NCBI RefSeq assembly: GCF_002379095.1
Contig: NZ_NBZV01000004.1
Span: 1-64,000, forward strand
From: Polaromonas sp. AER18D-145
GTDB lineage: Bacteria; Pseudomonadota; Gammaproteobacteria; Burkholderiales; Burkholderiaceae_C
Direction of reading: 5' to 3'
DNA length: 64,000 nt
Part shown: one piece after another, positions 21,852-39,452 of the stretch
How the letters are laid out: each line of letters starts with the position of its first letter
Position numbering within the stretch: the first letter of the stretch is position 1
The notes under the pieces: generated by a model
Seen by the model: only the letters and a program-made list of their open reading frames with translations
Told to the model about the DNA's origin: nothing
The model's database searches: none
Translations under genes and position numbers: made by a program

Positions 21852-23435
21852 TCAGGTGGCGCGCCCGGGCGCGGGTGCGATCAGCGCGTCCAGCACCCCA
21901 GCTTCGAAATGCCGCCCGATGTAGTCGGCCAGCCCCTCAAACACCGACTCCAGCGTCGGCGTGCTGGCCCCGAACAGCGCGTGCAACACCGCCGGGTCTT
22001 CAAACAGGCCGTGCAGGTAGACGCCCAGCACATTGCCGCTGCCGTTTTGCCAGGCCAGGCCGCCGGGCAACACGGCGTGCGCCACATCGCCGGCCGCCGC
22101 CATGGCGCTGTGCGGCGCGGTCTGCCCGTGATGGATTTCGTAGCCTTGCACGTCCACCCCGGACAAGGCCGCCCACGGCCCACCGACCGACGCAAAACGC
22201 GCCTGCCGGTGCTGCACGGTCTTGTCGGCTTCAAACAGCGTGACCACCGGCAGCAGCCCCAGGCCCGGCCCGTTGCCGTCGATGCCGTGCGGATCGATCA
22301 GCGCCTCGCCCAGCATCTGCAGTCCGCCGCAAATGCCGAGCACCGCCCCGCCGCGCCCGGCGTGCGCGGCAATCGCACTGTCCAGCCCCTGCGCGCGCAG
22401 CCAGGCCAAGTCGCCGCTCGTGTGTTTGGAGCCGGGCAGGATGATCCAGTCGGAAGGCGCCAGGCCGGCGAGCTCGCCCGGGTTGCGCACCCACTTCAGA
22501 TGAATGCCCGGCACATTCTTGAGCGGCTGGAATTCGTCGAGGTTGCTGATGCGCGGGTAGGCCACCACCGCGATGGTCGTTGGGGGGCCATAGCTCGAAG
22601 TGCCGTTTCCCGACCCTTTCAAGCCGGGGCCGTGGAACCGGCTTTGCCGGGCCACAGGCGCAGCGGCCCCCCCGGGGGGCAGCGAAGTACGCGCAGCGAC
22701 GAGCGTGGGGGCCATATCAAAAACACCGTCTTCCTCGGGCAGGCCGTGTTGCCACCACATCGGCAAGGTCGCCACCGTGGGCACACCGGTCAGGTCCTGC
22801 AACATCTGCGGGCCCGGGGCGAGCAGGCTGGCGTCGCCGCGGAACTTGTTGAGCACAAAACCCCTGATCAGCCGGCGTTCCGCTTCGTCGAGCATGGCCC
22901 AGGTGCCGTACAGGTGCGCAAAGGCGCCGCCGCGGTCGATGTCGGTGACCAGCAGGCAGGCCGCATTTGCGTGTTGCGCGACCCGCATGTTGACGATGTC
23001 GCTGTCCTTGAGATTGATTTCGGCCGGCGAACCCGCGCCTTCGATCACCACCACGTCGTTTTCTTCCAGCAGTTCGTCGAGGGCCTGCGCAATCACCGGC
23101 CAGACCGAGGCACTGCGGCCGCGCCAGGCCATGCGTGAAAGCTCGGCGTTGACCTGGCCCATCAGGATCACCTGGCTGTGCGTGTCTTTCTCGGGCTTGA
23201 GCAGCAGCGGGTTCATGCGCACCTCGGGCACGGCGCGTGCCGCGAGCGCCTGGAAGTATTGCGCGCTGCCGATTTCGCCCTGGGTGACCACTCTTGCGTT
23301 GTTGCTCATGTTCTGCGCCTTGAAGGGCGCGACCTTGAGGCCCTGGTTGGCGTAGTAGCGGCACAGCGCGGTGGTCAGCCAGCTTTTGCCGGCGCCGCTG
23401 GTGGTGCCCAGAACCATCACGCTTTTGGCAGTCAT
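21852..23435 (-). CDS. cobQ: Cobyric acid synthase (glutamine-dependent)
   Basis: A 527-residue amidotransferase that amidates adenosyl-cobyrinate a,c-diamide at four side chains to cobyric acid. The N-terminal dethiobiotin-synthetase-like ATPase has VLGTTSGAGKSWLTTALCRY. The C-terminal class I glutaminase has GAVLGICGGLQMLGE (Cys369). It is about 40 residues longer than usual: residues about 241-285, between the two domains, are encoded by a GC-rich dispersed repeat (22580-22713) read in frame. The start at 23435 overlaps the cobC stop by 4 nt. It is the last gene of the riboswitch-controlled operon. Confidence 0.95.
   Translation of the reverse strand: MTAKSVMVLGTTSGAGKSWLTTALCRYYANQGLKVAPFKAQNMSNNARVVTQGEIGSAQYFQALAARAVPEVRMNPLLLKPEKDTHSQVILMGQVNAELSRMAWRGRSASVWPVIAQALDELLEENDVVVIEGAGSPAEINLKDSDIVNMRVAQHANAACLLVTDIDRGGAFAHLYGTWAMLDEAERRLIRGFVLNKFRGDASLLAPGPQMLQDLTGVPTVATLPMWWQHGLPEEDGVFDMAPTLVAARTSLPPGGAAAPVARQSRFHGPGLKGSGNGTSSYGPPTTIAVVAYPRISNLDEFQPLKNVPGIHLKWVRNPGELAGLAPSDWIILPGSKHTSGDLAWLRAQGLDSAIAAHAGRGGAVLGICGGLQMLGEALIDPHGIDGNGPGLGLLPVVTLFEADKTVQHRQARFASVGGPWAALSGVDVQGYEIHHGQTAPHSAMAAAGDVAHAVLPGGLAWQNGSGNVLGVYLHGLFEDPAVLHALFGASTPTLESVFEGLADYIGRHFEAGVLDALIAPAPGRAT
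22580..22713 (-). repeat. GC-rich palindromic dispersed repeat inside cobQ (copy A)
   Basis: Read on the minus strand it runs GCCCCCACGCTCG, then TTCGCTGCCCCCC, CGGGGGGGCCGCTGCGCC, GGCCCGGCAAAGCCGGTTCC and GGCTTGAAA. It aligns with copy B (46711-46847) over about 90 bp and shares its first 30 bp with copy C (58541-58617). It contains two internal hairpins (CCCCCGGGGG type and CCGGCAAAGCCGG). It is in frame and adds a glycine/proline/alanine-rich linker to CobQ. Confidence 0.8.
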
Positions 23436-24448
23436 GTTGCTTTCCTGATGATGTGTTGCCACGCATTGAGCAATGCGTCCTGCGCCGCCGGCGCCAACAC
23501 GCCCAGGCGTACCTGCCCCGGCAAACCGAAGGACGTGGTGTCGCGCAGCTTGATGCCCTGCCCCCGCAGTTCGGCGAGCAACTGCGGCAGACTCATGCCG
23601 TGCGGCAGCAGCGGCCGCGCGCAGAAAAAATTGGCGGCACTGGGCAGGCAGGTCCAGCCCATCGCTTCGCACAGCGCGATCTGCCGCGCTTTCCATTCGC
23701 GCAGCGTGGCCAGGCTGGCGGCCAGCCAGGCTTGCACCTCGGGCGTGGTCCAGGCCTGCAGCATGGCCACGCCATGCGCGCCCACCGGCCACGACGGCGC
23801 CAGCTTGTCGAGCTGCATCACCGCATCACCGGCATCGGGTGGCGCAATCACATAGGCAGCGCGCACGCCCGTCAAGCCCAGCGCCTTGTTCGGTGTCCAG
23901 AGCTGCCAGAAGTTTTGCAGCGCCTCATCCGGCAGCGCCAGGGCGCCTTCAAGCCGCAGCGGCTCGTAGGCGCGGTCCAGCACACACAGCGCCGACGGAT
24001 CGGCCAGTTGATCAAGGGCTGGATGCGCCGCACCCAGCGGACTCGACGGGTCGCAGGCCCAGCGCAGTTGCGCGAGCGCCGGCTGCGCCACCACCGGCAG
24101 CTTCCACGCCTGCGCCGCCTGCGCGTAGTCGCCATAACTGTGTGGCGGCAACCAGACCGCCGTGGCGCCGCACTGCACCGCCAGCGCGGTGATACGAAAA
24201 ATGAACTCGCTGGCGCTGCCGGCCAGCAGCACACGTTGCACATCCACCCCGTGGAAGGCGGCGAGTTGTCGGCGCAAGGCGGCATAGCCGGCATCGGGGT
24301 AGCGGCCGGCGTCGGCCTGCTGCACCGCGGCCAGCGCCGCCGGGCATGGACCGCAGGCGTTGCTGTTGGTGGAGAAGTCATGCAACGGCACGCCCTCGCT
24401 GTCGGGGCCGCCGTGACTGCGCGTCGGGAAGGCCGGGTTTTCAGCCAT
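23432..24448 (-). CDS. cobC: L-threonine-O-3-phosphate decarboxylase / CobC-type aminotransferase-fold enzyme
   Basis: A 338-residue class I/II PLP enzyme: DFSTNSNACGPCPAAL, GRYPDAGYAALRRQLAAFHG, LAGSASEFIFRITAL, LDRAYEPLRLEG and the PLP-lysine region WTPNKALGLTGVRAAY. In the CobC/CobD branch it makes the aminopropanol-phosphate side chain for the nucleotide loop. The start at 24448 shares one nucleotide with the cobD stop (TGATG), and its stop overlaps the cobQ start. It is short compared with CobC proteins of about 330-360 residues but complete. Confidence 0.87.
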   Translation of the reverse strand: MAENPAFPTRSHGGPDSEGVPLHDFSTNSNACGPCPAALAAVQQADAGRYPDAGYAALRRQLAAFHGVDVQRVLLAGSASEFIFRITALAVQCGATAVWLPPHSYGDYAQAAQAWKLPVVAQPALAQLRWACDPSSPLGAAHPALDQLADPSALCVLDRAYEPLRLEGALALPDEALQNFWQLWTPNKALGLTGVRAAYVIAPPDAGDAVMQLDKLAPSWPVGAHGVAMLQAWTTPEVQAWLAASLATLREWKARQIALCEAMGWTCLPSAANFFCARPLLPHGMSLPQLLAELRGQGIKLRDTTSFGLPGQVRLGVLAPAAQDALLNAWQHIIRKAT

Positions 24449-25452
24449 CAGGCGATTCCAGATGCTATCAATACAGTAGCCGGCAGCGCAAACACACAAA
24501 GGGCCAGAACCCCTTTTGACGCCATACGAATGGCCTGCAGGGTGTCGGTGCCCTCCGGTTCCCTGCCCGCCTTGTTCAGGACATAGACCCCCGGCTTGCG
24601 CAGCGATACCCCAAGGGCCAGCGCCATGGCCGCCATCGGCCAGCCGCTGTTGGGCGACGGGGTCAGCACCGCTTCAGCGCGCAGGCCGGCCAGGCGAAAA
24701 CCACCAGCCACCCGCCACAACAGAAGCGCGGTCAGGCGCGCGGGCAGCCAGGACAACACATCGTCGGCGCGCGCGGCCCACTTGCCCGCCCATTCCCATT
24801 CACCCCGGTAGCCCCACATCGCGTCGGCCGTGTTGGCAAAGCGGTAAACGGCCGCGCCGGGCAAGCCCAGCAGCACAAACCAGAAAACCGGCGCCACCAC
24901 CGAGTCGTTGAGGTTTTCGGCGAGCGACTCGATCGCACTTTCGCGCACCTCGGCTTCCGTGAGCTGGCTGACATCGCGGCTGACCAGCCACGACAACCTT
25001 TCACGCCCCGCCGCAAGCGAGGTCTGCAAGGCGGCTTCCACGGCCTGCACCTCATCGCGCAGCATGCGCCAGGCCAGCAGCGGTTTGAGGAGCAGTGCCA
25101 GCAGCAGCACCAGCGCGGCGCCCAGAAGCCCGTCCCCGACCGCAGCGATGTCAAGGCGCAGCAGTTGACGCACGAACAGCCATTGCAGCCCGAACGCGAG
25201 CCCGCCCACGGCAGCCGCACCCGCGCACCAGGCCAGCGCGCCGCCAGCAAAAGCCGCGGCTGGCGGCAAAACTGTCAGACGCTTGCCGAAGGCGCCGAGG
25301 TAACGCCCCATCCAGACCACCGGGTGCCAGGCCACAGCGGGCTCGCCCCAGCGCCAATCGATGCCCAGCGCCAGCCACAGGGCAACCAGCAAAGCGGCGG
25401 CCAGGACAACCAGGCCCATCGGGTCGTGCGGGGCAGACAGGGCGAACAGCAT
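24448..25452 (-). CDS. cobD: Adenosylcobinamide-phosphate synthase (CobD/CbiB), membrane protein
   Basis: A 334-residue integral membrane protein with the CbiB signatures HPVVWMGRYLG, ESLAENLNDSVVAPVFWF and YRFANTADAMWGYRGEWEWAGKWAARADD. It attaches the aminopropanol side chain to cobyric acid. The C-terminal 21 residues (about 314-334, beginning KGVLALCVFA) are hydrophobic and are encoded almost wholly by a copy of the 60-bp dispersed repeat (24462-24522), which thus supplies a transmembrane-like tail. The start shares a nucleotide with the cobN-like stop. Confidence 0.93.
   Translation of the reverse strand: MLFALSAPHDPMGLVVLAAALLVALWLALGIDWRWGEPAVAWHPVVWMGRYLGAFGKRLTVLPPAAAFAGGALAWCAGAAAVGGLAFGLQWLFVRQLLRLDIAAVGDGLLGAALVLLLALLLKPLLAWRMLRDEVQAVEAALQTSLAAGRERLSWLVSRDVSQLTEAEVRESAIESLAENLNDSVVAPVFWFVLLGLPGAAVYRFANTADAMWGYRGEWEWAGKWAARADDVLSWLPARLTALLLWRVAGGFRLAGLRAEAVLTPSPNSGWPMAAMALALGVSLRKPGVYVLNKAGREPEGTDTLQAIRMASKGVLALCVFALPATVLIASGIA
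24462..24522 (+). repeat. 60-bp dispersed repeat inside the 3' end of cobD
   Basis: Blocks in order on the plus strand: GCTATCAATACAGTAGC (head hairpin), CGGCAGCGC, then AAGGGCCAGAACC and CCTTTTGACGCC. These match the block order of the intact copy at 50366-50424. It is translated in the opposite direction as the CobD C-terminal hydrophobic tail. Confidence 0.7.
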
Positions 25453-28400
25453 CAGCGGGCCTGCAGCAGCACCGGGCCGGCGGTACGGGCATGGGTACGG
25501 CGCGACTGGCGCCAGGCACCCAGCGCCATCAACACCGCCGTGCCAAACAGCGCCGCCAGGCTGAACACCACCGGCGTCACCGGTGGCGCAGCCGGCGTGG
25601 ACTGCGGTTCGAGTTTCAGGCCCTGCACCGGCACGGGTGCGTCCGGATCAACGGGCGCCTCCGACGGCCGGGCAGCGGCGGCCGCCTGCGCAGGCCGGGC
25701 CTGGCCCGGCGCAGCAGGGCTGGCGGCCTGTGCCTGTGCGGCTGCAAACCGCTTCACCGCAGAATTGCTTTCGCGCAGGCCGGTGGCTTTGAGCGCTTCC
25801 TGGTAGGCCTGCACCAGTTCCTTTTTGGTCGCATCGTCGGGCTGCCAGTAATTGAGACGCACCGCGTCCAGCATGCGCTCCAGCGTCTGCGCGAAAGCGG
25901 CACGGTTGCCGCCCTCCAGCCACTCGCGCGTACCGAGCTTGTACTGGTCGCGTACATACACGTTGTGCAGCGACTGCCAGTGGTCCTGCCGCACGGCCTG
26001 CGGCGCAGTCACCTGCCAGCCCCAGAGGAACTGCGCGGTCTTGAGCACCTGCAGTGTGCCGCTGTAGCCTTCGGCCTTCTGCGCATTGATCCATTGCGGA
26101 TGCAGGTAACGGGTGTGCATTTCCTTGGTCAGCGCGCTGGCCGCGCTTTCGGTTTTGACTTCGCTGTTGTCGCGCAGGTTCTGCACATAGAGCGACGGGT
26201 CCTTGCCGGTCAGCTGGCGCACCGCCTGCGCAATGCCGCCCAGGTACTGGAAGGGGTCGTCGCTGGTCAGCATGCCGTAGGTGTTGGACGTGCGCGAAAG
26301 CAGGGCCGCATCGACCTGCACCAGGTTGTTCGCATAGGCCTTGCTCCGCATTTTTTCCAGCGCCTGCCCCTGGCCCGGATTGTCACCCAGACCGTCACCA
26401 TAGGCGTGGCCCATGCGCGCCATGTACAGGCTGGCCATCTCCGCGTCGCCGCCGCCCTTGCCGGCGGTTTTCCAGAGATCGGTGGAACGCGCCGCATCGG
26501 ACAGGCCGGTGCTGTACGTGCCCTGTTCGTTGGAGAACACCCGCGCGGTGGACCAGCGCTGCGCCTGCGCGGCGCTGGCGCCGCCGGCCAGCATGGTTTT
26601 GGCAATGGCCTGCGAGTTGCGCGCGACGAAGTTGTCGCCCTCATGCAAGGCGGCCACCTGCTGCACGCCTTCATCGAGCCAGCGCATCACGGTCGGGAAC
26701 TGGTCACGGTAGGAGCCGGTCACGCTGAGCAGCACGTCGAGCCGCGGGCGTTTCAGCGTGCCTGCAGGCACGGTGTCCAAGCCCACCACGCGCCCGGCGT
26801 CATCCCAGCGCGGGCGCAGGCCCATGGCATGCAGGGCCTGGCTTTCCATCACGCCCTGGTGCCGCATGGTTTCGCCGGCCCACAGGGTGAAGGCAATTTT
26901 CTCCGGCCACTGGCCCTTGTTCTCTGCGCGGTGCTGCGCCATCCAGGCATCGAAGGCGGCCACGCCGGTGTCCCAGGCCTGGCGGGTCGGCACGCGGCTG
27001 GGGTCGAAGCCATAGAGGTTGCGGCCCGTCGGCAGGCTCTCGGGGTTGCGCACCGGGTCGCCGCCGTAACTGGCGGCCAGGTGCCGGCCGTCCAGCGCTT
27101 TCAGGAAACCGCTGATCTCCTCGTTGTTGGCCAGCGCGGCATCCAGCTGGACGGCGCGTTGCGCCAGCACCAGCAGCACCTGCGGGTCCAGCAGCTTGGC
27201 CTCGGCGCGATTCGGAACCGAAGTCTTCGCCTTCCTCGCGTCTTCGGCACGCAGGTCCAGCCGGCTTGCGGCTTGCGGGTCTTTCAATGCCACCTGCAGC
27301 CAGAGCGCGGGGCGCGACTGCATCAGGAGCGCGCCGTCGAGCAGGAACACCTCGTCGATGTCTTCACCGAGCGCCTCGATCAGCGGTTTGCGCAGGGTCT
27401 GCAGCACGGTCAGCAGGCGGCGCTGCGCGTCCGGTACCTCGCCGAACGCCGCCAGGCCCAGCGGCTGGGCGGTCTGCGCCAGGTCGTCCAGGAAAGGATG
27501 CAGCACTTCCATGAAGCCGGCAAAGTCGGTGCGAATTTTTTCCTGGTTCCACTTCAGGTCAAGGTGGAATTTCTGCTCGACAAAATGGGCGATCAGGCGC
27601 GCTTCCAGTTCGGCCTTCACCGGCCCCGGGGCGACGGTCTCCCAGTCGTGCATCAGGTCGTGCATCTCGTGCACCTGCGGACGGAAACCGGCCGGCGAAA
27701 ACATCGGCGTCGAGTGGCTGACCAGCACGGCGCGGCCACGCCGCTTGGCGGTCAGCGCCTCGCCGAGGTTGTCCATGATGTAGGGGTAGACATTGGGCAT
27801 GTCGCCCAGCGCCAGCAGCGGGTCGTCCTGCGCCGACAGGCCGCGCTCCTTGCCGGGCGCCCATTCGACCGTGCCGTGCGTGCCCACATGCACCAGCGCA
27901 TGCGCGCCCAGCTGGGTGCGCAGCCACAGGTAGGTCGCCAGGTAGTTGTGGCTCAACGGCACCTGCGAGCGGTGACCTATGCGTTTCTTGCGCAGCTCTG
28001 CCGACGTACCGGCCGTCACCTCATGGCGCAGCGGCTGCGGCAGGATGACGACGTTGCCCAGTTGCAGGCGCGGAATGATGAAGGCCGCCTCCAGCTGCCC
28101 GGGCTGGCCTGCCGCGCCGGATGTGCGCACCATGGCCGCCTTGTCGGCAGGGCCCCAGTAATCTTCAATGCGCTTTTGTGTCACCGGCGGCAGGCTGCGA
28201 AACCACGCCAGGTAGCGGGACAGCGGCAAGGCCTCGGCCAGCCCCTGGGCTTGCAGGCCCTGCACCACTTCCGGTTTGTAAAACGCTGCCATGGTGGCCT
28301 GCACCTGCGGCGTGATCTGCTCCGCGGCCGGTGCCTCGGTCTGGTAGCCGGCGGCTTTCATGGCTGCCAGCATGTTGTGCAGACTCTTCGGCACATTCAG

Positions 28401-29624
28401 GAAGGACGCACCGAAGTTGCCCTCCCCCAGCGGGTAGTTGTAGACCATCATCGCCACGCGGCGCTGTGCCGGTGACGCCTGCTGCAGCCGCACCAGGGCT
28501 GCCGCCTTGTCGGCCACGGCGTTGATCTGGCCGGTGATCGGCAGCAGCGAGCCGCTGGCGGTGTCGCGCGCGGTGATCAGCATGGCATCGACCATGCCGG
28601 AGAGTTCGCTCGGCGTGTAGTAATAGGAGACGTCGCTGAGCGCCAGCCCGTCCCTGCTCTGCGCCCATTCGGCCGGGTTCTTCGCCAGCGCCGGCATGGT
28701 TTGCAGCACCGGCACGCCGATGCGCTCGAGCTCGGCCTTGCGTTCGGTCGGGTTGAAGACCAGCGCGGCGTTGATGATGACGTCGGCCACGCGCCGCTGG
28801 CCCGCAGCGGTGGAAATATGCGTGGCCTGGAAGAACAGGTCTTTCTGCTGGCGCGGGCCGTAGAAGGCATAGGCGCGCAGGCCGCGCTGCTCGAGCGCGG
28901 CAATCAGCGTGTCCAGCCAGCCGGTGTCGGCCCCGGTGAAAACCGCGTTGTTGACGGCGATTGCTACTGTTTCAGGAGCTGCTTGCGTCCGGCCGGCATG
29001 GGCTGGTGACACATTTGATGCACCAAACGGGAGTTTGTCGAGCGCGCCGGCCTGGCCTTCAATCTGCGGCCAGCGCGGGTGGTAAAACCCGACCAGCGGC
29101 AGTTGCACGGCCGGCGGCAGGCTCGCCGCATCTGCCGTGCCGGCCTGCTTGAGCGCGCCCATTGCCAGGGCGATGTTGGCCGTGCCGCCAAAACGCCAGT
29201 ATTCGCGCAGGCGCTGCGCCCATGCGGCGCTGACGCCGCGTTCGGCCGCCAGCGGTGCAGCCGCGGACGACAGGTTTTTTGCCACCGTGCTGAACTCGCC
29301 GACCAGCACATAGGGCGTGTTGCCGCTGGCCAGCACCTCGCCAAACCGGGCCGCTGCGTTTTGCGCCACGCTGCCGTGCGGCGCGTCGATCACCAGCAGC
29401 TGCGCGCCGCGCAACGCCTGTTCAAGAGCCTCGGGCGTGTCCCGCTCGGCGGACAAGACCTTCAAAGGCACCCCGGCCTGCCGCGCTGCCGCAACCAGTT
29501 GCGCCAGGCGCGGCGGCGTCACGACGTAGGTCGTCAACAACACGGTGGAAGCTGTCGAAGGCTGGGCTGCGACCAGTCCCACGCATGCCCCCAGCAAAAG
29601 AAGCAGGCGAAGCAGGAAACTCAT
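25452..29624 (-). CDS. Exported, membrane-anchored CobN/magnesium-chelatase H paralogue
   Basis: A 1390-residue protein with the CobN chelatase core: HVGTHGTVEWAPGKERGLSA, YPYIMDNLGEALTAKRRGRA and VLVSHSTPMF. Unlike cytosolic CobN it begins with a signal peptide (MSFLLRLLLLLGACVGLVAA, residues 1-20). It ends with a proline/alanine-rich linker, a transmembrane helix (about 1362-1380) and a short basic tail (WRQSRRTHA), which places the chelatase domain in the periplasm. No cobS or cobT is present. Start and stop overlap its neighbours, DUF2149 by 4 nt and cobD by 1 nt. With the ExbB-like and DUF2149 genes it may form a proton-driven metal or corrinoid handling complex. Cobalt insertion for biosynthesis is less likely. 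One dispersed repeat lies in frame at 28960-29022. Confidence 0.85.
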   Translation of the reverse strand: MSFLLRLLLLLGACVGLVAAQPSTASTVLLTTYVVTPPRLAQLVAAARQAGVPLKVLSAERDTPEALEQALRGAQLLVIDAPHGSVAQNAAARFGEVLASGNTPYVLVGEFSTVAKNLSSAAAPLAAERGVSAAWAQRLREYWRFGGTANIALAMGALKQAGTADAASLPPAVQLPLVGFYHPRWPQIEGQAGALDKLPFGASNVSPAHAGRTQAAPETVAIAVNNAVFTGADTGWLDTLIAALEQRGLRAYAFYGPRQQKDLFFQATHISTAAGQRRVADVIINAALVFNPTERKAELERIGVPVLQTMPALAKNPAEWAQSRDGLALSDVSYYYTPSELSGMVDAMLITARDTASGSLLPITGQINAVADKAAALVRLQQASPAQRRVAMMVYNYPLGEGNFGASFLNVPKSLHNMLAAMKAAGYQTEAPAAEQITPQVQATMAAFYKPEVVQGLQAQGLAEALPLSRYLAWFRSLPPVTQKRIEDYWGPADKAAMVRTSGAAGQPGQLEAAFIIPRLQLGNVVILPQPLRHEVTAGTSAELRKKRIGHRSQVPLSHNYLATYLWLRTQLGAHALVHVGTHGTVEWAPGKERGLSAQDDPLLALGDMPNVYPYIMDNLGEALTAKRRGRAVLVSHSTPMFSPAGFRPQVHEMHDLMHDWETVAPGPVKAELEARLIAHFVEQKFHLDLKWNQEKIRTDFAGFMEVLHPFLDDLAQTAQPLGLAAFGEVPDAQRRLLTVLQTLRKPLIEALGEDIDEVFLLDGALLMQSRPALWLQVALKDPQAASRLDLRAEDARKAKTSVPNRAEAKLLDPQVLLVLAQRAVQLDAALANNEEISGFLKALDGRHLAASYGGDPVRNPESLPTGRNLYGFDPSRVPTRQAWDTGVAAFDAWMAQHRAENKGQWPEKIAFTLWAGETMRHQGVMESQALHAMGLRPRWDDAGRVVGLDTVPAGTLKRPRLDVLLSVTGSYRDQFPTVMRWLDEGVQQVAALHEGDNFVARNSQAIAKTMLAGGASAAQAQRWSTARVFSNEQGTYSTGLSDAARSTDLWKTAGKGGGDAEMASLYMARMGHAYGDGLGDNPGQGQALEKMRSKAYANNLVQVDAALLSRTSNTYGMLTSDDPFQYLGGIAQAVRQLTGKDPSLYVQNLRDNSEVKTESAASALTKEMHTRYLHPQWINAQKAEGYSGTLQVLKTAQFLWGWQVTAPQAVRQDHWQSLHNVYVRDQYKLGTREWLEGGNRAAFAQTLERMLDAVRLNYWQPDDATKKELVQAYQEALKATGLRESNSAVKRFAAAQAQAASPAAPGQARPAQAAAAARPSEAPVDPDAPVPVQGLKLEPQSTPAAPPVTPVVFSLAALFGTAVLMALGAWRQSRRTHARTAGPVLLQAR
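28960..29022 (+). repeat. 60-bp dispersed repeat inside the cobN-like gene
   Basis: Blocks: ATTGCTACTGTTTCAGGAGC, TGCTTGCG, then a spacer, TGGGCTGGTGAC and ACATTTGATGC, in family order. It is read in frame on the opposite strand as a loop containing VSPAHAGRTQAAPETVAIAV, about 220 residues from the CobN N-terminus. Confidence 0.7.
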
Positions 29625-29992
29625 GGCCGGGCCGCGGGCACGGCTGCAGGTGCCTTTGCATCAGGTACGGCGGGCACATACACCATGGTGCCGTCTTTCA
29701 TGCGGTAGGCGGTGCCGGCTTTTTCGCCATCCCCCTCGCCCGAAGCGCCACTGGCCTTGAAGCGCGTGACCTTCTGGCCTTCCTTGGTGATGATTTCCAT
29801 GTTGGGCTGACCCTCGTTGCGGATGATGGTCAGCTTGTCCTGCGCAAACGGATTCATCGGGTTGTTGATGACCGCAATCATCAGCATGCCGATGACGACC
29901 ATGAACACGTCGATCAGGTTGATGGTGGACAACACCGGGTCGTCATCGTCCGCGTCCAGGCTATTGAGAATCGAAAATTGCCTTTTACTCAT
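29621..29992 (-). CDS. DUF2149 protein, ExbD-like single-pass membrane subunit
   Basis: A 123-residue protein with a short acidic N-terminus (LDADDDDP), one transmembrane helix (about 22-43: STINLIDVFMVVIGMLMIAV) and a soluble C-terminal domain of about 80 residues rich in lysine, ending in a proline/alanine stretch. The helix entry NLIDVFMVV mirrors ExbD/TolR PLVDVMLVL, placing Asp28 at the proton-carrying aspartate. It overlaps the ExbB-like gene and the cobN-like gene by 4 nt each, so the three are translationally coupled and presumably form one complex. Confidence 0.82.
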   Translation of the reverse strand: MSKRQFSILNSLDADDDDPVLSTINLIDVFMVVIGMLMIAVINNPMNPFAQDKLTIIRNEGQPNMEIITKEGQKVTRFKASGASGEGDGEKAGTAYRMKDGTMVYVPAVPDAKAPAAVPAARP

Positions 29993-30465
29993 ACCTTCTC
30001 CTGCACGGTTTGCGCGTCCAGGATCATCACCAGCTCGCGCATCAGCCAGCGGCGGCGCACGGTGTAGACCACGAAGGTGATGGACGCGGAAGCCAGCGCC
30101 ACGATGACGCTGGCAAAGGCCGGCGCCAGGCTTTGCGCCACGCCCTGCGACTCGCCCGAAGCGACGGCCACCAGCGCCGGGCCCATGGGAATCATGGTCG
30201 CGATCAGGCCCAGCATGGGTGCGACGCGGCTGCACAGGCGCACACCTTCCAGGTCCTTCAGCAGCGCCAGCTCCATCTGGTCCTGGTCGTTGCCGTGCGA
30301 ATGCAGCACCAGCGGCCGCATCGGGTAGCGCCTGCGCTGCACAAACTCGACGCCGAAACCACCCAGGCTGTAAAGCGCGTAGACAAAGGAGAGCAGCACG
30401 CCCAGGGTGACGGGCCACAGGAACAGCCGGGCCAGCTCGAACAGAATGGCTTCAAACGCAAACAT
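29989..30465 (-). CDS. MotA/TolQ/ExbB-family proton channel
   Basis: A 158-residue membrane protein with three hydrophobic stretches: about 8-34, 87-110 and 118-143. The conserved ExbB/TolQ region reads LCSRVAPMLGLIATMIPMGPALVAVASG, followed by SIIV-like ASVIVALASASITFVVYTV. It is much shorter than ExbB proteins (about 240). ExbB-type proteins conduct protons to drive a partner across the envelope. Its partner here is the coupled DUF2149 protein, and the likely client is the CobN-like protein or BtuB through a TonB role. No tonB gene is present in the window. Confidence 0.85.
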   Translation of the reverse strand: MFAFEAILFELARLFLWPVTLGVLLSFVYALYSLGGFGVEFVQRRRYPMRPLVLHSHGNDQDQMELALLKDLEGVRLCSRVAPMLGLIATMIPMGPALVAVASGESQGVAQSLAPAFASVIVALASASITFVVYTVRRRWLMRELVMILDAQTVQEKV

Positions 30466-30521: not shown

Positions 30522-31193
30522 TCAGGCTGGCACCATGGGCTGGCCCCAGCTGTTTTCGAAAATCAGGTCGTCAAGCGGGCAGCGTTGTGCCCAGCGCTGC
30601 TGCTGCAACATTGGCTCTTCATAAAAATCGCTCACCGGCCCGAGGCACAGCAAGGCAATCGGCTCGGCACCGGCCGGCATCTGCAGCAGAGCACTGACGG
30701 CGCTCGGCTCAAACAGCGACACCCAACCCATGCCCAACCCTTCGGCGCGGGCCGCCAGCCAGAGGTTCTGGATGGCGCAGGCGGCGGAAGCCAGGTCCAT
30801 CTGCGGCAGGGTGCGGCGGCCAAACACGTGTTTCTCGCGGCCGTCGGCCAGCGCCACCACCCAGACTTCCGCCGCGCTGAGCAGGCCTTCCACCTTGAGC
30901 CGCATGAACTCGTCCTCGCGCTCGCCAAGGGCGCGCGCCGTCAATACACGCTCCTGTTCCACCAGTGCATGCAGCGCCTCGCGCAGCGGACGAGTCGATA
31001 TGCGAATGAAACGCCAGGGTTGCATGAAACCCACGCTGGGCGCGTGGTGCGCCGCCTGCAGCAAACGCCGCATCAGCGCAGGCGCCACCTCGCCGCCCGA
31101 GAAATGCCGCATGTCACGCCGCTCGTCAATGGCGCGGTAAACCGCAGCGATCTCGGGCGCAGAAAAGGCGTGACTGGAAAACAGGTTGCTCAA
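30522..31193 (-). CDS. bluB: 5,6-dimethylbenzimidazole synthase
   Basis: A 223-residue nitroreductase-fold protein with BluB signatures: [35 protein letters not shown], and [13 protein letters not shown] near the C-terminus. BluB cleaves reduced FMN with oxygen to make 5,6-dimethylbenzimidazole, the lower ligand of cobalamin. Its presence shows that an oxygen-dependent, true-B12 lower ligand is made. Its start overlaps the cobO stop by 4 nt, and 56 bp separate it from the ExbB-like gene. Confidence 0.93.
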
Positions 31194-31771
31194 TCTTCAA
31201 TCCCGCGTTGCGCCGGAACACCTGCGTTGAAGGCATGTTTGACCTTGGTCATCTCGGTCACGGTGTCGGCCAGTTCGATGATTTCGGGCGGGCAGCGCCG
31301 GCCGGTGATGACCACATGCACGTCCTTCGGCCGGTCCCTGAGCGTCTGCAGCACATCGTCCAGCGGCATCCAGCCGTAGATCAGCGGGTAAGTCAGCTCG
31401 TCGAGCACCACCATGAAGTTCTCGCCGCTCAAAATGGCGGCTTTGGCTTTTTCCCAGCCCTTGCGGGCCAGCTGGGCGGAATGCTCCAGGTCCTGGCTTT
31501 TCCAGCTGAAGCCGTCACCCAGGCCTTCAATTGGAATGCCCAGTTTCTCGAACATGCGGTGTTCACCAAACCGCGCGCTCGGCACCTTCATGAACTGGAA
31601 AATTTTCACGGCCTTGCCGTGCACATGGTGGCGGCCGTGCGCGCGCAGCGCCAGGCCAAACGCAGCCGTGCTTTTGCCCTTGCCGTCGCCGGTGTTGACG
31701 ATCAGCAGGCCGCGGCGTTCGCCCTCGGGCTTGTCGTAGGGCTTGTCGGTCGGGGGTGTTTCGATGTGCAT
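31190..31771 (-). CDS. cobO: Cob(I)yrinic acid a,c-diamide adenosyltransferase
   Basis: A 193-residue CobA/CobO-type adenosyltransferase: P-loop [59 protein letters not shown] and [22 protein letters not shown]. It transfers the 5'-deoxyadenosyl group from ATP to Co(I) of the corrinoid. The start at 31771 (MHIETPP) is chosen over an upstream extension. It lies 26 bp after btuD and overlaps bluB. Confidence 0.95.
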
Positions 31772-31797
31772 GGACGGTCTTCTCTCGGTTCTCTCGG

Positions 31798-32589
31798 TTA
31801 TATCTTCGGCACAGCCAGCCACTGGCCGGCCAGCTGGTGCACGGCGATGCGCTGGTCAAACACCGTCTCGAGCGCGCGGTGGGTGGCCGCGTCGCCGCAA
31901 GCCCCCTGGTGGACGATGCGGCCCTGGTCCATGAGCACCAGCTCATCGGCCTGCAGCGCAAACGAGATTTCATGCAGCACACTGACCACGGTTTTGCCCT
32001 GGGTCACCAGCGCGCGCACCATCAGCAGCCAGTCGGTCTGGTGCGGCGGGTCGAGGTTGGCCAGCGGCTCGTCCATCAGCAGCACCTGCGCCTCGACCGC
32101 CAGCGCACGCGCGAGCAACACGCGCTGGCGCTCGCCGCCCGAAAGCTGGCCGAGGGCGCGGGCGCGCCAGTCCCAGGCCTGCGTGGCACGCAGGGCGCGT
32201 TCGACGGCGGCATGGTCGGCGGCGCTGGGCGCGGCCAGCCAGGCCTGGTGCGGCAGGCGGCCCAGCATGGCCACGTCGTAAGCCGTCAGGTCGTCGGCCG
32301 AACTTTCGTTCTGGCCCAGCCAGGACAGCTGCTGCGCACGCTGGCGCCCGCGCAGGCTGGCCAGCGGCTGGCCCAGCAAGGCCACCTCGCCGTGATGCGG
32401 CAGCAAGCCCGCCAGCACCTTGAGCAGGGTGGACTTGCCGGCGCCGTTGGGGCCGACGATGCTGGTCCAGCGCGCGGCCGGCAGGACCAGGGGAATACCG
32501 TGCAGTACCTCGACATTTCCGAGGCTGGCCCTGATGGAGCGGGCGTCAATAGCTACTGAATCCATAGCAACTGGAGCGGTGTTCGGCAT
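31798..32589 (-). CDS. btuD: Vitamin B12 ABC transporter ATP-binding protein
   Basis: A 263-residue ABC ATPase: Walker [19 protein letters not shown]-loop near LSWLGQNE, signature [16 protein letters not shown], Walker [14 protein letters not shown] and switch His in SVLHEISF. It powers the BtuCDF importer at the inner membrane. The start at 32589 shares one nucleotide with the btuC stop (TGATG). Residues 6-14 come from a short piece of the 60-bp dispersed repeat at 32548-32572. Confidence 0.93.
32548..32572 (-). repeat. Fragment of the 60-bp dispersed repeat in the btuD 5' end
   Basis: On the minus strand this is TTGCTATGGATTCAGTAGC followed by TATT, the head hairpin of the family only. It codes for the extra N-terminal residues of BtuD before the conserved ABC domain begins. 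Being short, it could be chance similarity. Confidence 0.4.
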
Positions 32590-33608
32590 CACAGCCCCGC
32601 CCCTCTTCCGGTGTGCCGGTGCATCAGCCAGAGCAGGTAGCCGCCGCCCAGCACCGCCGTCAGCACGCCCACCGGCAGCTCCTGCGGCGCCACCAGCCAG
32701 CGCGCCAGGGTGTCGGCGGCCGTCAACAGCACCGCACCCATCAGGGCGGCCAGCACGGTCAGGCGGCCGTGGGTGGTCTTGACGACGGAGCGCACCAGGT
32801 GCGGTGCGGCCAGGCCCACAAAAGCAATCAGCCCGGTCTGCGCCACGGCGGTGCCGGTGGCCAGCGCCAGCACCGCCACCAGCGCCACCCGCATCTGCGG
32901 CAGGCGCAGGCCCAGGCTTTGCGCGGTGGCTTCGCCCAGCGCCAGGCCGTCGAGCACATGGCTCATCATCCAGGCGGCCAGCACGCTGAAGGTGAGCACC
33001 GTCGCCATCACAGCGCAGGCGGCCCAGCCGACAAAGGCCGTGCTGCCCAGCATGAAGGACTGCATAGCCTGCATGATCTCGGGCGTCAGCAGAAGGATCA
33101 GCGAGGTGATGGCCCCCAGCACCACGCCGACAATCACACCGGCCAGCAACAGGCGCAGGGTATGCTGCACGCCCTTGGCCAGCAGCAGGGTCAGCAGCAC
33201 GGCCAGCACGGCGCCGACAAAGGCCGCGCCGGTGAGCCCGATGCGCGCCAGCCAGTGCATGGCCAGTGGCGAGACGCCGAACAGCGCCATGGCGCTGGCC
33301 ACGCCCAGCGAAGCGCCCGAGGCGCTGCCCAACAGGTAGGGATCAGCCAGCGGGTTGCGAAACAGGCCTTGCGCCACCGCGCCAGCCAGGCCCAGCAAGG
33401 CGCCGGCCAGCCAGGCCCCCACCGTGCGCGGCAGGCGGATCTCGCGGACGATCTGCAGGGCCTGCGCGTCGTGCCACATGTTGCGCACGCTTTCAAAACC
33501 GGTGCTGCCCACACTCACCCCCAGCAGCAGCAGGGCCGCGCTGGCCAGCAGCAGGCCGCCTGCCAGCAGCAGGGCCACGCGGTGCTGGTTGGGAAAACGC
33601 GGACTCAT
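32589..33608 (-). CDS. btuC: Vitamin B12 ABC transporter permease
   Basis: A 339-residue FecCD/BtuC-type permease with about nine to ten hydrophobic segments. Family motifs include REIRLPRTVGAWLAGALLGL, GAVAQGLFRNPLADPYLLGS and GLIAFVGLAAPHLVRSVV. It forms the inner-membrane channel for corrinoid import with BtuD and BtuF. The start at 33608 (MSPRFPNQ) overlaps the btuF stop by 4 nt, and its stop shares a base with the btuD start. Confidence 0.95.
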   Translation of the reverse strand: MSPRFPNQHRVALLLAGGLLLASAALLLLGVSVGSTGFESVRNMWHDAQALQIVREIRLPRTVGAWLAGALLGLAGAVAQGLFRNPLADPYLLGSASGASLGVASAMALFGVSPLAMHWLARIGLTGAAFVGAVLAVLLTLLLAKGVQHTLRLLLAGVIVGVVLGAITSLILLLTPEIMQAMQSFMLGSTAFVGWAACAVMATVLTFSVLAAWMMSHVLDGLALGEATAQSLGLRLPQMRVALVAVLALATGTAVAQTGLIAFVGLAAPHLVRSVVKTTHGRLTVLAALMGAVLLTAADTLARWLVAPQELPVGVLTAVLGGGYLLWLMHRHTGRGAGL

Positions 33609-34513
33609 GGTGTGCCCGGCGCCTTGTCTTCGAGGCAACGGGCCATGAGGCGGGCCGCCTCGGCCATGCGCGGGCCGGGCCGCACGACCACGTCGGACTC
33701 CACCACGCCGAACACGCAGATGCGCTGCTCCTTCACGGCCTTGATGCTGCCCCAGCCGGGATAAGACGCCATGGCCTGCATGCTGCGGTTGCCGACCATG
33801 ATCACGTCGGGGTTGGCGCGCACCACGAACTCGGGGTTGAGCCGCGGGAAGGGGCCCAGCGACGCAGGCACCACGTTGTTGACACCCAGGCGCGTGAGTG
33901 TCTCCCCGATGAAGGAGGTCTCGCCGGCGGCATACGGCCCGCGGTTGACTTCAAAGTACACCCGCGCGCGTCTGGCCCGGGGCGACAGCGACTGCGCTGC
34001 CGCCGAGATGCTGGCGTCGATGGTGCGCCACAACCGTGCGGCACCGGCTGCCTCGGGGATATCGAGCAGCACACCGATTTTCCCAAGCACACGCCGAACG
34101 TCGGCGTGGCTCTTGGGCTCGAGCGCGACCACCTTGATGCCCAGCGACTCCAGGCGCTGGCTGGCGCGTGAGGACGTGGCCAGCAGCACCACGTCGGGCC
34201 GCAGCGCCACGATGCCTTCGATGTTCGGGTCCAGCCCGCCGCCCAGCACCGGCAGGCTGCGCACGCTGGCCGGGTAATTCGAATACCGGTCCACACCGAC
34301 CAGGCGCTGGCACTGCTCCATCGCGCAGACACTTTCAGTCAGCGAGGGCAGCAGGCTGACAATGCGCTGCGGGCTTTGCGCAAAACTCACACTGACACCG
34401 CGGTCGTCGGTCAGTTGCAGGGCGTGGGCTGGCGCCACGGCTAGAAGAAGCAGCAGCGCCGCCCTCACCCCAACCCTCTCCCAGAGGGCGAGGGAGCATG
34501 AAGAAAAATTCAT
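33605..34513 (-). CDS. btuF: Periplasmic cobalamin-binding protein BtuF
   Basis: A 302-residue type III solute-binding protein: RIVSLLPSLTESVCAMEQC, GVDRYSNYPASVRSLPVLGG, RPDVVLLATSS and VVRPGPRMAEAARLMA. It has a signal peptide with hydrophobic core AALLLLLAVAPAHA, cleaved near residue 31. The n-region of that signal (SCSLALWERVGVRA) is encoded by a dispersed repeat at 34461-34498, starting just 15 nt after the ATG. The ATG at 34513 overlaps the cobU stop by 4 nt, which supports it over internal starts. Confidence 0.93.
   Translation of the reverse strand: MNFSSCSLALWERVGVRAALLLLLAVAPAHALQLTDDRGVSVSFAQSPQRIVSLLPSLTESVCAMEQCQRLVGVDRYSNYPASVRSLPVLGGGLDPNIEGIVALRPDVVLLATSSRASQRLESLGIKVVALEPKSHADVRRVLGKIGVLLDIPEAAGAARLWRTIDASISAAAQSLSPRARRARVYFEVNRGPYAAGETSFIGETLTRLGVNNVVPASLGPFPRLNPEFVVRANPDVIMVGNRSMQAMASYPGWGSIKAVKEQRICVFGVVESDVVVRPGPRMAEAARLMARCLEDKAPGTP
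34461..34498. repeat. CCCTCACCCC...GAGGGAGC dispersed repeat in the BtuF signal sequence
   Basis: The plus strand reads GCCCTCACCCCAACC, then CTCTCCCAGAGGGCGAGGG, then AGC. It contains the hairpin CCCTCTCCCAGAGGGCGAGGG. I recognise this type of element as a common dispersed repeat in proteobacterial genomes, from memory only. Its translation in this frame forms the positively charged start of the BtuF signal peptide. Confidence 0.6.
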
Positions 34514-35097
34514 GGCTGGCCTTTCAAAACCAGCGGCAAACCGGCGGCCATCAGGGTCACGCGTTCACAGGCCTGCGCCACCTCCTGGTTGAGCCGGCCC
34601 AGCGCGTCCACAAAGGCGCGCACCTCGCGCCCGAGCGGTATCACGCCCAGCCCGATCTCGTTGCCGACCAGCACCAGCGGCCCGGGGCAACCTTCGATTG
34701 CTTCCAAAAGCATAGCTGCCTGCGACCGTGGGTATTGGGCTACAGCCTCTTTTTCATCTGGATCTTCGACAGGCATGAGCCAGTTGGTCAACCACAGCGT
34801 CAGGCAATCGACCACCACCAGTGTCTGCGCGTTGCCGTGCGCCGTGATGGCCTGCGCAAGCTGCAGCGGCTCTTCGACCGTGGTCATGCCGGGAACCCGC
34901 TCGGCCCTGTCCTGCTGGTGGCGCGCGATGCGTTGACGCATCTCGTCGTCCCAGGGCTGGCCGGTGGCGATCAGCACCGCACGATGCCCGGGCAATTGCG
35001 CAAGCCAGCCCTGCGCCAGCCTTTCGGCACGGCGCGACTTGCCGCTGCGCTGACCACCGAGGATCAGTTCGCTACGAACCAGGGACAGGTTATTCAT
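34510..35097 (-). CDS. cobU: Adenosylcobinamide kinase / guanylyltransferase
   Basis: A 195-residue bifunctional CobU/CobP: P-loop ELILGGQRSGKSRRAERLA, ATGQPWDDEMRQRIARHQQD, VVDCLTLWLTNWL and LVGNEIGLGVIPLGREVRAF. It phosphorylates adenosylcobinamide and adds GMP for nucleotide-loop assembly. A copy of the 60-bp repeat (34697-34760) lies in frame between the TLWLTNWL and VGNEIG motifs, giving a longer loop (about residues 112-135). It overlaps the BtuF-like protein by 8 nt and btuF by 4 nt. Confidence 0.94.
   Translation of the reverse strand: MNNLSLVRSELILGGQRSGKSRRAERLAQGWLAQLPGHRAVLIATGQPWDDEMRQRIARHQQDRAERVPGMTTVEEPLQLAQAITAHGNAQTLVVVDCLTLWLTNWLMPVEDPDEKEAVAQYPRSQAAMLLEAIEGCPGPLVLVGNEIGLGVIPLGREVRAFVDALGRLNQEVAQACERVTLMAAGLPLVLKGQP
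34697..34760 (+). repeat. 60-bp dispersed repeat inside cobU
   Basis: Blocks: ATTGCTTCCAAAAGCATAGC, TGCCTGCG, a spacer, TTGGGCTACAGCC and TCTTTTTCATCTG, in family order. It is read in frame on the minus strand as DEKEAVAQYPRSQAAMLLEA, in the loop ahead of the CobU base-recognition motif. Confidence 0.75.
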
Positions 35098-35890
35098 GGG
35101 TCGCACTCCAGTCCATGACGATGCGGTGCAACTGCTCCACCCCGTCGGTCAACGCGGCCGGTCCGGGTTGCAGGATGTCGGCCGACTTGATCTCGAACAA
35201 CTGGCCGTTTTTGACGGCGTTGACGTTCTCCCAACCGGGCCGCGCCGCAACTTTTTCGGGCCGGAACTTCTTGCCGCACCAGGAGCCGATGATGATGTCG
35301 GGATTGCGTTCGATGATCTGCACGCCGTCGGCAATGATGCGGTCCTTGCCCATGGCCATGCGCGCCAGTTCGGGAAAGCAGTCGTCGCCACCGGCCACGC
35401 CCAGCAGTTCGGAAACCCAGGCGATGGCGCTGATGTGCGGCTCGTCCCACTCCTCAAAAAACACGCGGGGCCGCCGTTTCAGGCCGGCCGCAGCCTGGGC
35501 AATGGCAGCCAGCCTGTCCTGCATGACCTGCATCAGCTGCAGCCCGCGCTCGCCCTGTCCGACCATGGCCGCGACCTGGTACATCATCGAGAAAATTTCA
35601 GCGATGCTGCGCTGGTTGAACACCGTGACCTGCACACCCTTGCGGATCAGCTCGGCCGCAATGTCGGCCTGCAGGTCCGAGAAACCGAACACGCAGTCGG
35701 GTTGGAGTTCCAGGATCTTGTCGATTTTGGCGCTGAGAAAAGCGCTGACCCGGGGTTTTTCGGCACGTGCGCGCGGCGGCCGGACGGTGTAGCCGGAGAT
35801 GCCGACGATGCGGCTCTCTTCCCCGAGCAGATACAGCCACTCGGTGGTTTCCTCGGTCATGCAGACGATGCGCTGCGGGCCGTACCTCAT
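35090..35890 (-). CDS. BtuF-like cobalamin-binding protein without signal peptide
   Basis: A 266-residue protein with the same type III binding-protein fold as BtuF: QRIVCMTEETTEWLYLLGEE, GISGYTVRPPRARAEKPRVS, FGFSDLQADIAAELIRKGV and IIERNPDIIIGSWCGKKFRP. It begins MRYGPQRIVCMTEE with no hydrophobic leader. The start is fixed by a 4-nt overlap with the cobB stop, so it is probably cytoplasmic unless exported in another way. A cytosolic corrinoid carrier or sensor between uptake and the Cob enzymes is a reasonable guess. Its stop overlaps cobU by 8 nt. Confidence 0.85.
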   Translation of the reverse strand: MRYGPQRIVCMTEETTEWLYLLGEESRIVGISGYTVRPPRARAEKPRVSAFLSAKIDKILELQPDCVFGFSDLQADIAAELIRKGVQVTVFNQRSIAEIFSMMYQVAAMVGQGERGLQLMQVMQDRLAAIAQAAAGLKRRPRVFFEEWDEPHISAIAWVSELLGVAGGDDCFPELARMAMGKDRIIADGVQIIERNPDIIIGSWCGKKFRPEKVAARPGWENVNAVKNGQLFEIKSADILQPGPAALTDGVEQLHRIVMDWSATHE

Positions 35891-39072: not shown

Positions 39073-39151
39073 TCAACAAAAGGCCCTCACCGGCTTCCCC
39101 GCCAGTGCATGAGCGTTACAAACGCCCGGTCCAATGAAAGACGCGCGCGTT

Positions 39152-39418
39152 CACCTTGTTGGCCGGTATCCGGGCTGACGGAACTGCTCTCATCGCCTTC
39201 CCAAGCGCGTGTTCAGAACGCTCAGTGGCTGATGATGAAAGCTGAATGTGCCCCGAGCCTGAATCAGGGGTGCGACATTCGTCCGTTTACCGTTGCGGGG
39301 GCAGCGCAGGTTAAAAATCTAGGCGCAATCGGCCCGGGCTGACCCGGTGCGGATGGCGTTGATTCCCTCCTGCTTCCCGTTGAACTGCAGCGTGTGAACC
39401 ACACCGCGAGCACCAACA
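39152..39418 (-). promoter_or_regulatory. Cobalamin riboswitch with enlarged 5' stem-loop
   Basis: On the minus strand the RNA opens with TTGGTGCTCGCG (39417 down). It continues with GGGAAGCAGG, GCTGCCCCCGCAACGGTAA, AGCCACTG, GGGAAGGCGATGAG and the B12 box CAGCCCGGATACCGGCC (about 39161-39178). These are the ordered landmarks of the class. Between GGGAAGCAGG and CCTGCGCTGCCCCCGC there are about 57 nt where a short GGTG-type loop is usual, so this arm looks expanded. It lies about 80 nt before btuB and should repress the operon when adenosylcobalamin is abundant. Confidence 0.9.
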
Positions 39419-39424
39419 GGCAAG

Positions 39425-39430
39425 ATTCTA
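39425..39430 (-). promoter_or_regulatory. Candidate -10 element for the btuB-cob operon
   Basis: TAGAAT on the minus strand ends 7-8 nt before the first conserved base of the riboswitch, which fits transcription starting near 39418. No good -35 at 17 bp is visible; TTGCAC lies only 12 bp upstream. Confidence 0.4.
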
Positions 39431-39452
39431 CGCGCCAAAACTGTGCAAACCC

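Follow-up and report, generated by a model that had tools for sequence, protein, structure and literature searches.

Results

A three-gene cassette in a corrinoid operon

A 64,000-nucleotide stretch of the genome of Polaromonas sp. AER18D-145 (the window, meaning the whole of this stretch) carries a cassette of three genes that encode a short ExbB-like protein, a DUF2149 protein and a CobN-like protein. The cassette is an insert within an operon for corrinoid uptake and salvage under a cobalamin riboswitch, and it belongs to a known kind, the exported CobN-like proteins (BtuS/HmuS) with ExbB and DUF2149. Our preferred reading, held tentatively, is that it specifies a periplasmic enzyme that handles the metal of corrinoids and is driven by the proton-motive force, with a channel in place of the CobST AAA+ motor. 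All genes of the operon lie on the minus strand; those of the cassette are:

29989 to 30465, minus strand: cassette gene 1, short ExbB/TolQ-type channel subunit of 158 residues with three helices (PF01618)
29621 to 29992, minus strand: cassette gene 2, DUF2149 (HmuV-type) protein of 123 residues with one hydrophobic helix and a small C-terminal part (PF09919)
25452 to 29624, minus strand: cassette gene 3, CobN-like protein of 1390 residues, predicted to be exported and membrane-anchored (PF02514)

The CobN-like protein matched PF02514 over residues 141-1266 (927 bits), and a PDB sequence search returned 7c6o, 9d26, 9uk9 and 4zhj as relatives. Its translation opens with a signal peptide, MSFLLRLLLLLGACVGLVAA-Q, the cleavage site being judged by eye, and closes with a hydrophobic segment followed by basic residues. 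Export with C-terminal anchoring is thus supported by the translation, as had been stated in a preliminary description of this DNA. The translational coupling claimed there also holds in the sequence: the DUF2149 ATG overlaps the ExbB stop codon as ATGA, and the DUF2149 stop codon overlaps the CobN ATG likewise.

The two small proteins gave Pfam scores of 27.8 bits for the ExbB-like protein (cut-off 22.9) and 94.4 bits for DUF2149 (cut-off 27.1). An AlphaFold model of the short ExbB has three helices (predicted local distance difference test, pLDDT, 86.7). Its best Foldseek matches were the ExbB proteins of ExbB/ExbD complexes (probability 1.00, E-value 0.015, template-modelling score 0.5-0.6), with no match reaching an E-value of 0.001. 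VIA-align placed ExbB/TolQ among unrelated helical bundles at a similar Z of about 10, so that the fold assignment rests on the Foldseek list and the Pfam match. PDB sequence searches gave no match for the short ExbB and a single weak, unrelated match for DUF2149. The AlphaFold model of DUF2149, of low confidence (pLDDT 59), has a single helix together with a small part rich in strands. The DUF2149 family model gives a weak match to an ExbD-like protein of genome G294; the ExbD model PF02472 does not match the window DUF2149 at an E-value of 1e-3. Asp28 lies within the helix NLIDVFMVV and is invariant across a 34-sequence alignment. The ExbD-like motif and the very short ExbB/TolQ-type channel of the preliminary description were therefore read correctly, and proton conduction through Asp28 is putative.

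The rest of the operon and the content of the genome

From its head, the other features of the operon are:

39144 to 39431, minus strand: cobalamin riboswitch RF00174 at the operon head (cmscan, 63 bits, E-value 3.3e-13; also found in the whole-genome search)
37234 to 39072, minus strand: BtuB-like TonB-dependent outer-membrane receptor (Pfam barrel and plug domains)
35887 to 37221, minus strand: cobB-like a,c-diamide synthase (named from the open reading frame and a GATase_3 match at 35932-36486)
35090 to 35890, minus strand: BtuF-like binding protein without signal peptide (Pfam Peripla_BP_2; start judged by eye)
34510 to 35106, minus strand: cobU/cobP kinase-guanylyltransferase (PF02283; NF004469 above cut-off)
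33605 to 34513, minus strand: BtuF-like periplasmic binding protein (PF01497)
32589 to 33638, minus strand: BtuC-like permease (named from the open reading frame, position and collinearity with relatives)
31798 to 32592, minus strand: BtuD-like ABC ATPase (named likewise from the open reading frame, position and collinearity)
31190 to 31822, minus strand: cobO/btuR corrinoid adenosyltransferase (PF02572; NF004637 above cut-off)
30522 to 31193, minus strand: bluB dimethylbenzimidazole synthase (TIGR02476, 245 bits, cut-off 150)
24448 to 25452, minus strand: cbiB (PF03186; TIGR00380 above cut-off)
23432 to 24499, minus strand: cobD/cobC-like aminotransferase (named from the open reading frame and collinearity with relatives)
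21852 to 23420, minus strand: cobQ-like cobyric acid synthase (named from the open reading frame and a GATase_3 match at 21993-22577)

The top NCBIfam match of the receptor was TIGR01779 (TonB-B12) at 448 bits, under the cut-off of 600, and no tonB gene was identified within the window operon. The start of the BtuF-like gene at 35090-35890 overlaps the cobB stop codon; its product is possibly a cytosolic corrinoid-binding protein.

The window genome, 100% complete by the tool's figure, holds one CobN-family protein by family search, and the term 'paralogue' used for it in the preliminary description does not apply. CbiC (precorrin-8 mutase), the one ring-synthesis protein searched for, had no match. 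CobT had been said to be absent, and PF06213 indeed gave 0 matches genome-wide, in a search that did not extend to CobS, a general AAA+ protein. The organism probably neither makes the corrin ring nor has a canonical cobaltochelatase. Four canonical ExbD genes (PF02472) were found, all on other contigs. The score of the CobN-like protein against NCBIfam NF004644, 'cobaltochelatase subunit CobN' (1276 bits, cut-off 1248), would suit an ordinary cytosolic subunit of the biosynthetic cobaltochelatase. Since the genome search found neither a further CobN nor any CobT or CbiC, it is not the standard biosynthetic enzyme; the signal peptide and the anchor already contradict that role, which we rejected as very improbable.

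The cassette as an optional part of the operon

In five same-genus genomes without the cassette (L204-L208, chosen for cobB and cobQ lying close together) the operon was otherwise collinear in all five. Compared with the window, proteins of genome G423 were 88-98% identical from BtuB to CobO and for CobD/CobQ, and 67% for CbiB; bluB and the cassette are both missing there, and in G454 bluB is followed directly by cbiB. Corrinoid uptake and salvage can therefore presumably operate without the cassette. DUF2149 was found in 6 of 86 same-genus relatives. As a side observation, three cassette-free genomes (G400, G393 and G423) also lack bluB, whereas G454 and G404 have it.

The cassette had been expected to go with CobB/CobQ, but the association proved not to be specific: GATase_3 exceeded its cut-off in 137 of 199 relatives, and after subtraction of 19 carriers in about 118 of 178 cassette-free ones.

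Riboswitch linkage among relatives of the class

DUF2149 was searched in 369 genomes of the window's class and in 199 closer relatives, with the window's own genome in both sets, and was matched in 21 of the former and 21 of the latter. The preliminary description had suggested looking for genome co-occurrence and riboswitch linkage, and both were found. A CobN-family match was present in 39 of the 41 genomes with DUF2149 (DUF2149-positive genomes only being counted), and the three-gene module is not a chance association. In one of the other two, G294, the DUF2149 match reads as an ordinary ExbD; in the second, G543 (locus L079), ExbB and DUF2149 are present with no CobN match in the genome and no partner recognised at the locus.

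A same-strand cobalamin riboswitch lay within 13 kb upstream, a limit set after the operon was seen, at 21 of 40 DUF2149 loci. By clade, as assigned by us, the linkage was 10/11 for the window's type, 11/13 for a second type and 0/16 for the others; the two B12-type clades together had 21 of 24 loci linked, G466, G143 and G333 being the unlinked ones. Two genomes of the second type, G511 and G557, belong to the window's own order; in another, G256, the riboswitch is below Rfam's cut-off. Four genomes (G121, G155, G236 and, with a weak match, G256) have the riboswitch directly upstream of CobN, 5.1-5.3 kb ahead of DUF2149.

In a FastTree phylogeny of 56 CobN-like proteins, the window's B12 clade (10 proteins) grouped with receptor-linked proteins, 21 in all, with support of 1.0; these receptor-linked proteins are without a riboswitch. 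The second B12 clade (12 proteins) was separate with support of 1.0. Each B12-linked clade had support of 1.0, and the deeper nodes were weak (0.26 and 0.59). The tree leaves out G435 and G333, where CobN is split across contigs, and the DUF2149 alignment lacks 4 of the 40 proteins. From these sequences, B12 control may have been recruited twice, or once with a later loss.

A cbiC match was absent in 19 of the 24 B12-type genomes; completeness is below 90% for three of the 24 (G417, G435 and G333). The feeding of cobalt raised in the preliminary description is thus unlikely as a common role, and we rejected a supply of cobalt for making the ring as the main one. G413 has CbiD, a CbiG-type protein and a CfbA/CbiX-type chelatase match (below the model cut-off) inside the same cluster, and in G417 the exported CobN is accompanied by one of canonical type.

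At L076 (G457) both the CobN-like gene and btuC are broken into two frames, through gene decay or sequence errors. At L089/L075 (G413) the corrin-ring gene block has its own second riboswitch inside an otherwise identical operon.

The set in Bacteroidota, Planctomycetota and Archaea

A scan of genome contigs of 84,980 species with the DUF2149 alignment gave 570 loci, of which the best 80, an uneven sample, were examined (by record title, 60 Bacteroidota, 11 Planctomycetota and 9 Archaea). ExbB was directly upstream of DUF2149 at all of these best 80. At 65 of the 80 a same-strand CobN lay no more than 3.5 kb away (Bacteroidota 52/60, Planctomycetota 8/11, Archaea 5/9). The 15 loci without a nearby CobN were all counted as misses; a contig end is close in 8 of them (L126, L137, L145, L159, L173, L182, L187, L201). 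Seven genomes with misses were searched whole (L135, L137, L143, L177, L181, L193, L203): CobN was present in six, and the L135 genome gave no CobN match. The CobN of the L203 genome is, by position, the opposite-strand gene of the same locus.

The anchor is general in this set. With 8 fragments and 3 cytosolic-type proteins set aside from 104 rows, a hydropathy threshold found a C-terminal anchor in 93 of 93 near-complete proteins and in none of the three cytosolic-type CobN/ChlH. The N-terminal score was low in 6 of 91, though as the best of several start codons it is biased towards a signal; five of the six are archaeal, and archaeal export signals are poorly scored by the script. Hydrophobic N-termini are visible in the archaeal L136 and L156, the G567 protein is hydrophobic at both ends, and G566 has a long form and a cytosolic-type one.

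Among the archaeal loci the ExbB-DUF2149-CobN tandem occurs at five of nine, the other four genomes (L137, L143, L181, L193) hold CobN, and a receptor was found at none of the nine. Archaea have no outer membrane. Since the set is kept there, the pair cannot serve solely to power an outer-membrane receptor. In the window's class, the receptor-linked loci L023 and L024 have HmuY-family proteins beside CobN-ExbB-DUF2149, and L024 has canonical ExbB, ExbD and TonB genes alongside the short pair in one locus. Taken with the archaeal set and the four ExbD genes of the window genome, this indicates that the constant partner is CobN and not a receptor.

These data bear on an improbable alternative, in which ExbB/DUF2149 power BtuB via TonB and the CobN-like protein acts alone. 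This is the published assignment of HmuU/HmuV, which are held to power HmuR with TonB (PMC12583661, PMC10100974). It would suit the ExbB fold match and a TonB gene beside BtuB in G089, but is opposed by the archaeal set, the complete canonical system in L024, the separate ExbD genes of the window genome and the operon in which no tonB was identified. The proposal that proton flow replaces an ATPase motor, made in the preliminary description, is strengthened by the presence of the set in archaea.

Of 15 Bacteroidota loci scanned, four (L133, L140, L169, L197) had a cobalamin riboswitch; at L169 the one that adjoins CobN is on the opposite strand. The ANME-1 locus L130 has, 5' of the module, genes for CbiQ, a cobalt-transporter-type ABC ATPase, a PGF-CTERM protein and DUF2162. 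Its CobN, of 2038 residues, carries beta-sandwich domains of a type typical of exported proteins.

Active-site motifs

The catalytic histidine of the H-F-G-[TA]-H-G motif (HmuS His538) is found in the window protein as His583 of HVGTHG. This first motif reads GRHS in the second type and GKHG in two canonical CobN sequences. The catalytic His and a Glu were retained in all 22 B12-type proteins aligned (10/10 of the window's type, 12/12 of the second). At the second site the window has LTSDDPFQYLGG, with Asp and Gln in place of HmuS His1209/Glu1212, and the LSLDHxxEFMGG motif is absent. At these two positions the window's type has Asp/Gln and the second type Asp/Asp, while CobN has Asp or Glu at the first and Gln at the second. 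Asp/Gln is also found in 9 of 11 receptor-linked proteins, which argues against HmuS membership and is no proof of a corrin substrate. The heme-site columns Met79/His254 of HmuS were not recovered by the alignment, even among HmuS sequences. The family label of an HmuS-type heme de-chelatase was rejected on the missing His1209/Glu1212 motif. The cassette also has no HmuY or HmuT gene.

Of the 93 proteins of the wider set, 91 retain the first motif as G-x-H; the two that have lost it are Methanoculleus CobN-like proteins beside ExbB-DUF2149 (L156, L183).

Two further explanations can be weighed on these residues. In the first, the CobN-like protein receives a corrinoid, either from BtuB or from some carrier, and the proton-driven channel powers its release to BtuF, a hand-over that involves no metal chemistry. 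The linkage of the cassette to BtuB and BtuF/C/D-type genes, and its being an optional add-on to a complete uptake operon, fit such a role, but the catalytic His and Glu kept in 22/22 proteins would be unneeded by a pure carrier, and we regard the hand-over as somewhat unlikely. In the second, which we think unlikely, the cassette would serve the supply of metal: an HmuS-like de-chelatase would take cobalt, or a different metal, out of corrinoids or other tetrapyrroles. Of the relatives the best characterised is HmuS, with which gut bacteria take iron from heme (PMC12583661), and the ANME-1 module of L130 adjoins a cobalt-type ECF transporter. Against stripping stand the replacement of HmuS His1209/Glu1212 by Asp/Gln and, given the B12 riboswitch and the 19 of 24 carriers without cbiC, the lack of an evident use for the freed cobalt in B12 synthesis.

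Discussion

A proposed proton-driven step in corrinoid salvage

We infer complex formation, proton coupling to the CobN-like protein, a corrinoid substrate and the direction of the reaction, and arrange them as follows. The three cassette proteins would form one inner-membrane complex, in which the CobN-like protein would be periplasmic and held by its C-terminal anchor, and the ExbB-like and DUF2149 proteins would make a small ExbBD-type proton channel with Asp28 as proton carrier. Proton flow would drive the conformational cycle of the CobN-like protein, the role of the CobST AAA+ motor in the cytosolic cobaltochelatase. A corrinoid delivered to the periplasm by BtuB would be handled ahead of BtuFCD-type import and then pass to the CobB, CobO, CobQ, CbiB and CobU steps. 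In the most likely reaction, imported corrinoids that lack cobalt or carry a wrong metal would have cobalt inserted or their metal exchanged.

Insertion or exchange is likelier than cobalt stripping because cbiC is missing from 19 of the 24 carriers and because the residues at the second site agree with CobN and differ from HmuS. Cobalt stripping, also raised in the preliminary description, would oppose an operon induced by B12 shortage; removal under such induction being self-defeating, metal insertion or exchange, or hand-over without chemistry, remain. As for the periplasmic proton-driven chelatase proposed there, export and anchoring as read from the sequence, the ExbB/DUF2149 pair, the lack of CobT and the B12 operon partly support it. 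A stricter version, in which a proton-motive-force-driven periplasmic cobaltochelatase metallates BtuB-imported rings, cobalt-free or with the wrong metal, with cobalt and ExbB-DUF2149 is the general engine of exported class I chelatases in bacteria and archaea, we consider rather doubtful. Corrins without metal, and those with zinc, nickel or copper, are known as chemicals (PMC7693184, PMC6790578, PMC12174906), and bacteria may meet them in nature.

Several observations weigh against a proton-driven metal-handling enzyme for corrinoids. Some carriers make the ring, as the ring genes of G413 and the canonical-type CobN of G417 show, and the literature examined gave no support for uptake of cobalt-free corrinoids by such organisms. 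ExbB-DUF2149 occurs without any CobN match in G543 and in the L135 genome, and in the G089 operon BtuB has a TonB gene next to it. Amidases of the CobB/CobQ type are shared with cassette-free relatives. The second-site Asp is found also in receptor-linked proteins without a riboswitch and so is no corrin signature, and the catalytic motif is lost in two Methanoculleus proteins. The DUF2149 model is of low confidence, and the proposed function is put forward from sequence. With NADH, recombinant HmuS takes the metal out of heme, apparently in the absence of HmuU/V (PMC12583661), so a motor may not be needed. The exported CobN-like proteins BtuS1/BtuS2 of Bacteroides fragilis add a further difficulty: the double mutant grows poorly on heme iron, and still releases protoporphyrin from heme (PMC6460266), so that the chemistry of the BtuS/HmuS group is debated.

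If the proton-driven reading is true, there would be a second way to power tetrapyrrole metal insertion or removal, beside the AAA+ motors that drive the well-known class I chelatases CobN and ChlH. The association of HmuU and HmuV with HmuS would then have an explanation; their published assignment to the receptor, and HmuV as a diagnostic of heme transport, would need revision. Periplasmic metal handling of corrinoids would become a step of B12 salvage; to our knowledge it is absent from current B12 pathway maps. In the full-text literature, with most subscription journals outside it, we came across no description of the B12 cassette in members of the window's class, and none of a CobN-type protein powered by a proton channel.

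Relation to known systems

The preliminary description had presented the cassette as an unprecedented machine. It belongs instead with the exported CobN-like group BtuS/HmuS, whose features it has by sequence (PF02514, an N-terminal signal, a C-terminal transmembrane segment, and ExbB-like and DUF2149 neighbours) and which includes a heme de-chelatase, HmuS, of solved structure and demonstrated heme de-metallation (PMC12583661). The hmuYRSTUV operon of Bacteroidota (HmuS/HmuU/HmuV) shares with the window an exported, anchored CobN-like protein, ExbB-like and DUF2149 partners, a receptor in the operon and the catalytic His and Glu. The window differs in its B12 riboswitch and a BtuB-type receptor in place of HmuY/HmuR, in having no gene between CobN and the pair, which is the place of HmuT, in a cleavable-looking signal peptide, and in Asp/Gln where HmuS has His1209/Glu1212. 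A 2026 paper leaves an effect of HmuT, HmuU and HmuV on HmuS activity possible (PMC13227078). HmuV has been called diagnostic of heme transport (PMC10100974), which the B12-linked loci do not fit. The BtuS1/BtuS2 group resembles the window protein in its predicted periplasmic, anchored CobN-like proteins, and in B. fragilis a cobalamin riboswitch precedes an hmu-like operon (PMC10100974); the window's class differs in having two clades with their own active-site motifs inside corrinoid operons.

The CobN of CobNST shares the PF02514 fold, and Gln with Asp or Glu at the second site, but is cytosolic and has GKHG (two sequences compared) where the window has GTHG at the first motif. ExbB-ExbD and TolQ-TolR share the ExbB fold and a one-helix partner with an invariant Asp; the cassette differs in its very short ExbB, a DUF2149 that the ExbD model leaves unmatched, and the lack of TonB. 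In the Zur regulon of Pseudomonas aeruginosa, PA1922-PA1925 combine a receptor, a CobN-like and an ExbD-like protein in one operon (PMC4542158), which resembles the window by description, the level at which the two were compared, and differs in being zinc-controlled. A table entry links DUF2149 to TolQ in methanogens (PMC9425974).

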